A stretch of 40,759 bases of DNA, from the NCBI GenBank assembly GCA_016926185.1, contig JAFGPD010000027.1, positions 1 to 40,759 on the forward strand, in the 5' to 3' direction. Of this stretch, positions 31,061-34,798 are shown piece by piece. Every line of letters begins with the position of its first letter. The first letter of the stretch is position 1. Source of the DNA: Candidatus Woesebacteria bacterium. Its GTDB lineage: Bacteria > Patescibacteriota > Microgenomatia > UBA8517. The position numbers and the translations under genes are program-made. The notes beneath the pieces are model-generated. The model saw only the letters and a list, made by a program, of their open reading frames with translations. It was not told the DNA's origin and did not search any database.

Positions 31061-32140
31061 ATGGCGAGAAAGAAAAAACCCGAAGTGAAGGCTCCTGAAA
31101 AAAAGACAGATGCCTCTCAAAAACTTCAGGCGATAAAGATCGCGATGGAGCAAATTGAAAAACAATATGGAAAAGGCTCAATTATGCGATTGGGAGAAAG
31201 AGGTAAGGACCTTAAGATCGATGTGATCCCGACTGGCTCGATAGCAGTGGACCTCGCCTTGGGTGTCGGTGGTCTTCCTCGAGGCAGGATTGTAGAGATC
31301 TATGGTCCTGAAGCATCAGGGAAAACGTCACTGACACTTTCCGTTGTAGCTGAAGCACAAAAGGCAGGAGGACAATGTGCCTTTGTTGACGCAGAACACG
31401 CACTGGACCCTGCTTGGGCGGAAAAGATCGGGATAAACTTGGATGATCTTCTTTTATCTCAACCTGATTCAGGGGAGCAGGCATTGGAAATTACTGAAAC
31501 CTTAGTTCGATCGGGCGCATTGGATGTAATTGTTGTTGACTCAGTTGCAGCCCTTGTCCCCCGTGCCGAGCTGGAGGGAGAAATGGGGGATGCTGTAATG
31601 GGAATGCAAGCGAGGCTGATGAGTCAGGCTCTCAGAAAGCTTACGGGCGCGATCAGTAAAAGCAAAACCATTTTGATCTTTACCAACCAGATCCGTCAAA
31701 AGATCGGAGTGATGTTTGGCAATCCTGAGACTACTCCGGGAGGACTGGCACTTAAGTTTTATTCATCAGTTAGACTTGATATTAGAAGAATTGAAGTTTT
31801 GAAGGATGGGGACAATGTGATAGGATCGCGACACCGCGTACGAGTTGTTAAAAACAAGGTTGCACCGCCTCTGAAAACTGCAGAGCTGGATATTATGGGT
31901 GATGAAGGAATATCGAAAATGGGTGGGCTTATTGATGTTGCATCTGAACTTAAGATAATGGACAAAAAAGGAGCATTTTATTATTATGGTGACAAAGTAT
32001 TAGCGCAAGGAAGAGAGGCGGCAAAGATGGAGCTTGCGTCTAACAATAAACTTGCAAAGGAAATCGAGAAAGAGATAAGAAACGTTCTTGCTGAAGGCAA
32101 AAAACTTCCAAAGGAAATTGGTGAAGCTGAGGATAAGTAA
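31061..32140 (+). CDS. recA: Recombinase RecA
   Basis: RecA coats single-stranded DNA and drives strand exchange and the SOS response. The 359-residue protein has a Lys-rich start, then [23 protein letters not shown], Walker A GPEASGKT at 82-89, VDAEHALDP, the Walker B region [14 protein letters not shown], the loop region [17 protein letters not shown], and [21 protein letters not shown] (loop L2). The C-terminus is acidic, as usual. recX lies downstream beyond a structured repeat element. Confidence 0.98.
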
Positions 32141-32234: not shown

Positions 32235-32449
32235 TTTACTTTCTTGTTCACCCAAGAAAGTAAACAAAGAAAGGTGCCCGGTGTTTTTCGAGTTGATATC
32301 TCTTCGCTCATGCTTTACAAAAAACGCGTTGCAAACACTTGCAATACTGTTTTTGTATTTTGGTTGTATTCGCTCATCGATATCAAAGCTCAAAACACAA
32401 GGGTATTGTTTTTTAGATTAAGTCAATGGAGATTGAATTTCTGACGGCA
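32235..32449 (+). repeat. Structured repeat element, copy A (between recA and recX)
   Basis: The element opens with a perfect 12-bp hairpin (32235-32246 with 32253-32264, 6-nt loop), then AAAGAAAG. A large imperfect hairpin follows: GTGTTTT (32281) with AAAACAC (32392), GAG with CTC, and TTGATATC (32293) with GATATCAA (32379). Inside it is an apical hairpin (TACAAAAAC region with GTTTTTGTA, then TTGCAA with TTGCAA around ACAC, 32329-32344). It ends near ACGGCA (32444-32449). Copy B at 33200-33371 has the same plan. The 360-nt recA-recX gap holds nothing else except the recX promoter. Confidence 0.75.
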
Positions 32450-32492
32450 TTTTAAGTATATTTCTACAGGATATTCTATTGATTTGGGTAAA

Positions 32493-32501
32493 TGGTAGAA
32501 T
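32493..32501 (+). promoter_or_regulatory. Extended -10 promoter of recX (leaderless)
   Basis: TGGTAGAAT (TGn plus TAGAAT at 32496-32501) ends 6 nt before the ATG at 32508. recX thus seems to have its own promoter separate from recA. Confidence 0.45.
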
Positions 32502-32507
32502 GTGTCT

Positions 32508-33116
32508 ATGCCGGTGATCACGAAGATCGAGCCACAGAAAAATAAAAAGAGAGTTAACGTTCACCTCGATGGTGAGTTTTCCTTTGGACTGGATATTGAA
32601 ACTTACATGAAATCGAGTCTCAAGGTTGGGCAGAACTTAGCTGATGAAGAAGTCAAGCAAATAGTCAAAAAATCTGAATTTAAAAGCGCTTTGGATAAAC
32701 TACTTCACTACTCCACTCTCCGCCCAAGATCTGAAAAGGAAATAAATGACTGGCTGAAGAGAAAAAAAGTTGCAGAGAGTTTGCATAAAGAACTGTTCAA
32801 TAAACTAAAGCACCTGAAACTATTGGATGATGAAAATTTTGCTAAATGGTGGGTTGGGCAAAGGTTGCAGTTTAAAAATCGATCTATCAGAGAACTAGCC
32901 AACGAGCTTTATAAAAAAGGAATAGACAAAAACATCATTGAAGAAGTTTTGAAAGACTCGGAAATTAGTGAGGAAAGCTCAGCTGGGAAACTATTGGAAA
33001 AAAGATCTTTTGCATGGAGAAAATACACAGGCTGGGAAAAAAGAAAGAAAATGAGTGATTATCTGGCTAGGAAAGGGTTTAGCTGGGATGTTATTAAGAA
33101 GGTGGTTAAGGAATAA
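32508..33116 (+). CDS. recX: RecX family regulator of RecA
   Basis: RecX binds RecA filaments and limits their activity. The protein has about 202 residues and three-helix repeats typical of RecX: LLHYSTLRPRSEKEINDWLKRKKV (R-x-R-S-x-x-E-L-x-x-x-L), LKLLDDENFAKWWVGQRLQFKNRSIRELANELYKKGI (D-x-x-F-A-x-x-x-x-x-R) and ARKGFSWDVIKKVV at the end. Location after recA supports it. I prefer the ATG at 32508 to the in-frame GTG 6 nt upstream because the former has a -10 box at the right distance. Confidence 0.93.
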   Translation: MPVITKIEPQKNKKRVNVHLDGEFSFGLDIETYMKSSLKVGQNLADEEVKQIVKKSEFKSALDKLLHYSTLRPRSEKEINDWLKRKKVAESLHKELFNKLKHLKLLDDENFAKWWVGQRLQFKNRSIRELANELYKKGIDKNIIEEVLKDSEISEESSAGKLLEKRSFAWRKYTGWEKRKKMSDYLARKGFSWDVIKKVVKE

Positions 33117-33199
33117 GTTTGTTTTATTAACTTCTATAGAGTTATGCAATTTTTTTAGATATTTTGTTACTAAGTAATTTTCTATAAGATTCAAAGATA

Positions 33200-33371
33200 G
33201 TCCATTTCTTGCTTGTCCAAGAAATGGACGAAAGAAAGACAGCCTGTAATAATTTAATAGCTCCAAGCCTCACTTATATTATGTAAAAAACGCGTTGGAA
33301 ACACTTCCAAGTGCTGTTTTTACTTTTTTATTGTATTCGTTCGTCTTGTCGAAATTAAATTCTTAACGGCA
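33200..33371 (+). repeat. Structured repeat element, copy B (after recX)
   Basis: The plan is that of copy A. A perfect 12-bp hairpin (33200-33211 with 33218-33229, 6-nt loop) is followed by AAAGAAAG. The long-range stem AATTTAAT (33251-33258) pairs with ATTAAATT (33354-33361), with an outer GCC/GGC pair. An apical hairpin has GTAAAAAC pairing with GTTTTTAC and TTGGAA (33295) with TTCCAA (33305) around ACAC. The end is again ACGGCA (33366-33371). Most differences from copy A fall in stems and keep pairing. No coding frame here is credible. Confidence 0.75.
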
Positions 33372-33529: not shown

Positions 33530-34798
33530 ATGGTAAAAAACAAAAAAATTGAAGACGTTAGTGCAAGCGAGCTTAAGGCTTTGGTGAAGGAGCTACGGGA
33601 AGATCGAAAGGTTTTTGAAAAGCGTCAGCAAAAGCTCGAGGAGAGAGAAAAAGAACTCATAAAACTTTTAGAAAAGGCTTCAAATCTAACTGCGAAAGAG
33701 GCTAAAAAGTTGCTTCTTTCTGAACTTGAGAAAGAACTTAAAGAAGAAAAAGCTAAAAAGATAAGAGCCTACGAGGAAAGGGTAAAACAGGAATCTTCCG
33801 AAAGAGCCAGGCAGATATTGGTTGAGGCCATGCGACATGGAGCGACTGAATATGTTGCCGAATACACTCTTTCTTCAGTTAAAGTTCCCAGTGAGGATGT
33901 TAAGGGAAGGATAATCGGCAAGGAAGGCAGAAACATTCGCGCTTTTGAAAAGGCGACAAAGGTTGAGCTTGAGCTAGACGAAACTAACGAGATCAAGTTG
34001 TCCTCTTTTGATTCGATAAGAAGAGAGATTGCAAAAAGAGCTCTTGAAAAACTTATCAAAGACGCAAGGATACAGCCCTCTCGGATAGAGGAAGTTGTCG
34101 AACAGACTGAAAAAAATATGGATGAAGTTCTTTTAGAGGAAGGCAAAAAGATTGCAGAAGAGTGCGGTGTTTATAATCTTCCGACGGAAATAATCTCTCT
34201 GATCGGTCGTTACAAATTCAGGACCTCTTATGGGCAGAACTTGGGAATTCATACTATTGAGGAGACCAAGATGGGTCTATCAATCGCAAAAGAGATCGGT
34301 GCTGATGTTGATATTGTCAGGTTAGGTTGTTTATTGCACGACATCGGCAAGGTGGTTGAAGGAGAAGGAACACATATAGACTTGGGAGTGAGAGTTTTGA
34401 AAAAACATGGGTTACCAAAGGAAGTCGTGAATGCTGTTGCGGAACATCATGAGGATAAGCCTTTCTCTTCTGTCGAGTCAGTGATCGTGTGGACCGCTGA
34501 TGCTATTTCAGGGTCCCGTCCAGGTGCCAGATATGAACCACATGAGGAATATGTTGACAGGATGGAGAAAATCGAAGAGATCGCCCAAGGATTCAAAGGT
34601 GTTGACACAGCTTATGCATTTCAAGCGGGCCGTGATGTCAGGGTCATTGTGAATCCGCAAGAGATCGATGATGACGGATTGACCGTTTTGGTCCATGATA
34701 TTGCGCAAAAACTGGAAAAAGAAGCTGAATATGCAGGACAAGTAAAAGTTACTGCAATACGAGAAATAAGAGCTACTGATACTACTGCAGCGAAATAA
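33530..34798 (+). CDS. rny: Ribonuclease Y lacking the N-terminal membrane anchor
   Basis: RNase Y is an endonuclease that starts mRNA decay. The 422-residue protein has a coiled-coil of charged heptads at about 1-105, a KH domain with GRIIGKEGRNIRAFE (about 125-140), and an HD domain with His241 (LGIHTIE), His270-Asp271 (LLHDIGK) and AEHHEDKPF. The C-terminus has GVDTAYAFQAGRDVRVIV. Family members are usually about 520 residues with an N-terminal membrane helix; here an in-frame TAA 9 nt upstream excludes a longer form, and the N-terminus is hydrophilic. It is probably cytosolic or recruited by a partner. Confidence 0.95.
   Translation: MVKNKKIEDVSASELKALVKELREDRKVFEKRQQKLEEREKELIKLLEKASNLTAKEAKKLLLSELEKELKEEKAKKIRAYEERVKQESSERARQILVEAMRHGATEYVAEYTLSSVKVPSEDVKGRIIGKEGRNIRAFEKATKVELELDETNEIKLSSFDSIRREIAKRALEKLIKDARIQPSRIEEVVEQTEKNMDEVLLEEGKKIAEECGVYNLPTEIISLIGRYKFRTSYGQNLGIHTIEETKMGLSIAKEIGADVDIVRLGCLLHDIGKVVEGEGTHIDLGVRVLKKHGLPKEVVNAVAEHHEDKPFSSVESVIVWTADAISGSRPGARYEPHEEYVDRMEKIEEIAQGFKGVDTAYAFQAGRDVRVIVNPQEIDDDGLTVLVHDIAQKLEKEAEYAGQVKVTAIREIRATDTTAAK

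Follow-up and report, generated by a model that had tools for sequence, protein, structure and literature searches.

Two folded repeats flanking recX in a Candidatus Woesebacteria genome probably belong to a widespread family of small mobile DNA elements

Two repeats flanking recX (copies A and B) in the 40,759-nt stretch of Candidatus Woesebacteria DNA analyzed here (the window) are probably, at about 0.62, solitary members of a widespread, non-autonomous family of small mobile DNA elements that occur as dispersed copies and have a folded 5' end. At that end, selection most likely acts on a single DNA strand folded into a 12-bp hairpin with a 6-nt loop and a pseudoknot between the loop and bases downstream. 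A purine strand that mirrors the 3' arm of the hairpin may lie along that arm in a triplex-like arrangement, or a protein may read the two together. Such elements would enter intergenic DNA in both orientations, as single units in Patescibacteria and as inverted, tail-to-tail double units in Zoogloea, Iodobacter, and Anaerotruncus, with the moving enzyme presumably acting in trans.

Both copies lie on the forward strand, A (32,235–32,449) between recA (31,061–32,140) and recX (32,502–33,116) and B (33,200–33,371) between recX and rny (ribonuclease Y; 33,530–34,798), so that they form direct repeats about 965 bp apart rather than an inverted doublet. The first-pass annotation had described two folded copies of the same plan around recX, and its coordinates and parts were confirmed on re-reading: common to both are the 12-bp hairpin with its 6-nt loop, AAAGAAAG, a long imperfect stem, and a terminal ACGGCA (32,444–32,449 in A; 33,366–33,371 in B). 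In A, the hairpin (TTTACTTTCTTG/TTCACC/CAAGAAAGTAAA; 32,235–32,264) is followed by AAAGAAAG (32,266–32,273) with the purine run AAAGAAA (32,266–32,272), a putative third strand whose first six bases mirror the AAGAAA of the 3' arm, and by GGTG (32,273–32,276), the predicted pseudoknot partner of CACC in the loop (32,249–32,252). Copy B repeats this arrangement with a hairpin at 33,200–33,229 (GTCCATTTCTTG/CTTGTC/CAAGAAATGGAC), AAAGAAAG at 33,231–33,238, a purine run AAAGAAA (33,231–33,237) of which the first six bases again mirror the 3' arm, and GACA (33,238–33,241) opposite TGTC in the loop (33,214–33,217). The remainder of B folds into a long imperfect hairpin (33,242–33,370) that closes with GCC (33,242–33,244) and GGC (33,368–33,370), ends that read ACC/GGT in the related copy on contig C2, and bears the apical hairpin TTGGAA-ACAC-TTCCAA (33,295–33,310); its counterpart in A is TTGCAA-ACAC-TTGCAA (32,329–32,344), and A additionally has an outer stem (GGTGCCC../..GGGTATT), while its 3' tail is longer. 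Predicted folding energies were −60.5 kcal/mol for A (z = −4.27) and −43.0 kcal/mol for B (z = −4.68), with none of 200 dinucleotide shuffles folding as well in either case, and a covariance model of the 5' module (R1) scored the copies at 60.2 and 64.8 bits, respectively. Within the body of A, TTCGCTCAT occurs on the 5' side (32,303–32,311) and again on the 3' side (32,369–32,377) of an internal loop. This motif is also present in related copies from other genera, and a related one (ACTCGC..GCTCAAACA) in Zoogloea and Iodobacter copies; it is possibly a second conserved site in the element body.

The window's genome (1.11 Mb in 57 contigs) contains further copies, whose absence would have spoken against the first-pass reading: R1 detected five, and the genome thus holds at least three besides A and B. 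The apical motif occurs four times (its backwards control, zero times), the two additional occurrences lying in copies on contigs C2 and C37, while the fifth copy, on contig C25, is more diverged. The exchange of TTGCAA/TTGCAA for TTGGAA/TTCCAA recurs among the apical-hairpin copies, and comparison of the copies indicates that the changes in both the first-hairpin arms and the apical hairpin, proposed earlier to be compensatory, truly are. The same cannot be said of the long stem, also put forward as covarying: because A belongs to another subtype than B, its stem TTGATATC/GATATCAA is not column-for-column homologous to AATTTAAT/ATTAAATT of B, and the two are different stems serving one plan. 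B, C2, and C37 can be aligned end to end, with 5 of 56 predicted pairs changed on both sides yet kept, and they form one subtype; A, with its extra outer stems, represents a second. The C2 copy starts 6 nt past a stop codon, which places the 5' boundary of this genome's unit at the hairpin. The exact apical motif had no match in the genome contig or viral contig collections, and the apex therefore seems private to this genome, which the 5' module is not.

Selection on the folded form, proposed in the first-pass annotation from A and B, is supported by covariation in both the stem and a pseudoknot, the latter formed between the hairpin loop and the bases just 3' of AAAGAA. The loop and downstream strands covary strongly (TCGC-GCGA, TGCC-GGCA, TGTC-GACA, and CCGC-GCGG, with CACC-GGTG in copy A). 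In the alignment of 34 diverse copies and 49 columns that underlies R1, 96.7% of hairpin and pseudoknot pairs were standard versus 75.9% after shuffling, and the covariation score of 0.530 (0.144 shuffled) was reached in 0 of 500 shuffles, well away from the chance-level covariation that would have spoken against the fold. Sliding the partners by 1–3 columns abolished the signal (0.04–0.10). Since the search pattern left the lower stem and two loop positions unfixed, these pairing counts were not created by the pattern. Furthermore, with a finder that made no use of the AAAGAA sequence, the pseudoknot was possible in 70 of 99 distinct loop/downstream combinations, compared to 24.8 ± 3.5 when loops were dealt anew.

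The purine run after the hairpin follows the 3' arm in mirror order: arms reading AAGAAA are followed by AAAGAA, AAAGAA by AAGAAA, and GAGAAA by AAAGAG. The mirror was exact in 131 of 144 copies with AAGAAA arms, 11 of 15 with AAAGAA, 10 of 10 with AAGAAG, and 8 of 8 with GAGAAA, while the corresponding counts for a direct repeat were 19, 3, 9, and 0. The exchange from AAAGAA to AAGAAA is seen independently in Patescibacteria (G012, contig C2; G030, contig C24), Zoogloea, and Thioalkalivibrio. GAAAAG arms fit the rule in part (mirror AAAAG). A direct repeat, or an arrangement in which the purine run pairs with the 5' arm, would suit the AAGAAG and GAAAAG arms but fails for GAGAAA (eight mirror copies, no direct ones). 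In purine-motif triplexes, known from DNA third strands, the third strand runs antiparallel to the purine strand and forms A·A-T and G·G-C triplets. Mirror symmetry is a requirement of such triplexes, and we infer a triplex-like reading of the mirror strand. That strand lies only 1–2 nt past the 12-bp stem, a link short enough to strain a simple intramolecular triplex, so a protein that reads both segments, or contacts between two copies, may be involved instead.

The folded motif is kept in dispersed repeats across at least five bacterial phyla. The first-pass annotation had mentioned dispersed TTTCTTG...CAAGAAA sequences in other bacteria, and these were borne out by a pattern search of the genome contig collection, in which the exact pattern occurred in at least 118 stretches. 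The matches listed include Thioalkalivibrio, Zoogloea, Alloalcanivorax, Iodobacter, Janthinobacterium, and Zetaproteobacteria among the Proteobacteria and, elsewhere, Oscillospiraceae, other Clostridiales, Nitrospinota, Nitrospirae, Reichenbachiella (Bacteroidota), and Woesebacteria. Copy numbers by R1, counted among at most 150 scored candidates per genome and hence lower bounds, reached at least 104 in a Janthinobacterium MAG, 99 in Iodobacter, 93 and 76 in two Clostridiales MAGs (the latter G147), 81 in Anaerotruncus massiliensis, 77 in Zoogloea dura, and 34 in a Nitrospirae genome (G156). Closer to the window, the 5' hairpin with AAAGAA is also found in other genera of the same family, and 8 of 33 genomes of that family carry the element. 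Only the module of about 49 nt, not the element bodies, can be aligned across phyla, so the case for common descent rests on the module. A search with one element found it in no phage, and the plasmid carriers among the matches listed were limited to a Variovorax megaplasmid and an Iodobacter plasmid. Many module matches fall at the ends of MAG contigs, where repeats tend to be found, and the family would thereby account for a class of repeats at which metagenome assemblies seem to break.

These copy numbers, together with empty orthologous sites in Zoogloea, agree with the earlier proposal of a non-autonomous mobile element. In Zoogloea dura, two facing modules lie 491–494 bp apart in 14 of 15 loci, the fifteenth being cut by a contig end, and the whole double unit of two inverted modules spans about 640 bp. 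The flanks of one unit are 35–49 bp apart in four other Zoogloea genomes, and at three further loci the flanking sequences likewise adjoin each other in one or two relatives per locus. Absence of the unit at all four orthologous sites checked suggests that the whole double unit inserts; several clean losses would be a less likely alternative. No target-site duplication was visible by eye in two Zoogloea ends, with relatives too distant for exact boundaries. Most Anaerotruncus copies also occur in facing pairs, combining several stem subtypes. In the window's genome, A and B occupy spacers that have almost no length in most relatives: the recA-recX-rny order is conserved, but the recA-recX gap is 365 nt here versus about 0–30 nt in most relatives, and the recX-rny gap is 417 nt. 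None of 29 relatives, all from outside the window's genus, carried the element at this locus, where some have other, longer spacers.

The form in which the module is recognized could be RNA or DNA. A structured RNA, either regulatory or SINE-like and spread via reverse transcription, with the pseudoknot as its functional form, would be consistent with folds that are stable under RNA parameters, and H-type pseudoknots with an A-rich third strand are a common RNA design. Selection on RNA should, however, make G-U the commonest departure from Watson-Crick pairing. Across the lower five pairs of 118 distinct stems, positions unconstrained by the search, 538 of 590 cells were Watson-Crick, 42 were mismatched, and 10 were G·T, which puts G·T at about one-fifth of departures, close to its chance share; with so few G·T against 42 other mismatches, G·T seems to be treated as a mismatch. 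The element also lay on the same strand as the upstream gene in 49 cases and on the opposite strand in 40, and this random orientation, together with the lack of preference for G·T, speaks for selection on DNA that is folded or palindromic and against a cis-regulatory RNA. The RNA explanation is further weakened by the inverted double units and the lack of an Rfam family match in the window; we consider it improbable, and the regulatory RNA offered as one option by the first-pass annotation is disfavored accordingly. A 3'-UTR or terminator RNA, hinted at by the copy positions at recA, at recX, and on C2, was rejected given the random orientation over about 90 copies. We infer that single-stranded DNA, not RNA, is the recognized form.

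As a possible mobilizer, the first-pass annotation had suggested an IS200/IS605- or RAYT-like enzyme, of the Y1 (HUH) transposase type. The inverted doublets of Zoogloea, Iodobacter, and Anaerotruncus resemble REPINs, the window's genome has five Y1 genes, and within its family Y1 is present in 7 of 8 carriers versus 8 of 25 non-carriers (hand count; one-sided exact p ≈ 0.009, uncorrected), all of which could fit a REP/REPIN-like element moved by an unrecognized subgroup of RAYTs (TnpA_REP) through the same single-stranded process. A RAYT gene is normally located in a REPtron alongside its REPs, which carry a GTAG motif (PMC8266576), whereas R1 found no match at 56 Y1 loci out to a distance of about 1.5 kb. 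In the copies read, no constant GTAG stands 5' of the palindrome, where bases vary freely. Moreover, 5 of 20 carriers lack Y1, as does genome G008, and none was found in the high-copy Anaerotruncus, Clostridiales G147, and Nitrospirae G156 genomes. Without GTAG or an adjoining Y1 gene the element is not placed in the REP/RAYT family; mobilization by RAYT/IS200 enzymes is not supported as a general rule, and the RAYT subgroup is an unlikely explanation. Less likely still is a MITE-like element whose outer inverted ends are read by a DDE transposase, with the folded module secondary. The Zoogloea double units do have outer inverted ends of about 24 bp (TGTGCCTTT..CTGGTCGGCTTTCC), about 80 bp outside each hairpin, and their hairpins are 491–494 bp apart. 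Against this, the two ends inspected revealed no target-site duplication, the patescibacterial single units start at the hairpin itself and lack terminal inverted repeats, and the folded module is the only part common across phyla. An all-against-all comparison of 979 ORFs from element loci revealed no shared ORF or transposase.

We rate the element as a new family within a known kind, REPIN/MITE-like non-autonomous mobile DNA, though not REP/RAYT. Like REPs and REPINs, it is a short, intergenic, high-copy, non-autonomous palindrome, often in inverted doublets, and is presumably recognized as a folded single strand; it differs in its 12-bp stem, 6-nt loop, pseudoknot, mirror strand, and unit length of 170–640 bp, and in having neither the constant GTAG nor an adjoining cognate Y1 gene, several carriers having no Y1 at all. 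The ends of IS200/IS605 elements such as IS608 and ISDra2 likewise combine a subterminal single-stranded hairpin with non-canonical pairing of a guide segment, but that guide lies 5' of the hairpin whereas here a 3' segment mirrors the arm, and no tnpA or tnpB was seen with the element. With MITEs, Correia, ERIC/IRU, and RU repeats it shares a non-autonomous, foldable, intergenic nature and insertion polymorphism. To our knowledge, the reported sequences of these groups are genus- or family-bound, while this module is recognizable across phyla with deep structural covariation. The pairing of a hairpin loop with a strand just downstream recalls the Pistol ribozyme and other H-type pseudoknots; here, however, the stem is 12 bp with conserved sequence, G·U is not favored, and there is no pistol match in Rfam. 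The window copies matched no Rfam family at gathering or relaxed thresholds. An Alloalcanivorax copy did match TwoAYGGAY (RF01731) above the gathering score (54.1 bits), but antisense to the element body (L084:578-714, −), and 14 other element loci, window copies included, gave no match at E up to 0.5. Because this antisense match stands alone and the AYGGAY loops are not kept, membership was rejected; the match probably stems from the two-hairpin shape. The open literature, with subscription journals outside the search, did not contain the module as a described bacterial repeat and, as far as could be checked, the end structure has no described equal.

The pseudoknot, mirror rule, inverted double units, and cross-phylum spread had been missed in the first-pass annotation, and a conserved folded motif in which stem, pseudoknot, and mirror strand all covary suggests that an unrecognized enzyme reads folded DNA. 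Several carriers are culturable, with numerous copies that hardly differ from one another (Zoogloea dura, Anaerotruncus massiliensis, Iodobacter, Thioalkalivibrio, and Alloalcanivorax), which makes a search for that enzyme practical. More speculatively, and with doubt clearly outweighing confidence, the family could be a cross-phylum form of mobile DNA with a pseudoknotted, purine-motif-triplex single-stranded end, moved by an unlinked, non-RAYT enzyme and carrying small genes between inverted copies.

Several gene associations were observed near individual copies. All five wide facing pairs in Anaerotruncus massiliensis (G145; L236, L258, L259, L260, and L261) enclose XRE-type genes, each insert encoding one or two different Cro/C1-type (XRE, HTH_3) proteins of 70–134 aa, an arrangement reminiscent of small cassettes of genes bounded by folded ends. 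In the same genus, a unit of about 55 nt (CTTAGATTTGCCGCTC..GAGCGGCGGAG..GTCGG) is repeated in tandem outside the hairpins (L224-L237). On the Variovorax paradoxus megaplasmid (CP063167; L278), a facing element pair about 610 bp apart adjoins a transcriptional regulator/HigB gene pair. In each of two almost identical stretches of Iodobacter fluviatilis plasmid pl1 (NZ_CP025783; L279, L280), an element copy has genes for an HTH regulator, a HipA toxin, and a Y1 transposase nearby. Separately, a Y1-domain protein of 341–453 aa adjoins a conserved small membrane protein in seven genera, often near glycosyltransferases (L060, L061, L062, L063, L064, and L065, besides the window's genome); the version in the window's genome (L056:1622-2893; contig C54) also has SH3 domains, and this protein is apparently a domesticated HUH transposase.
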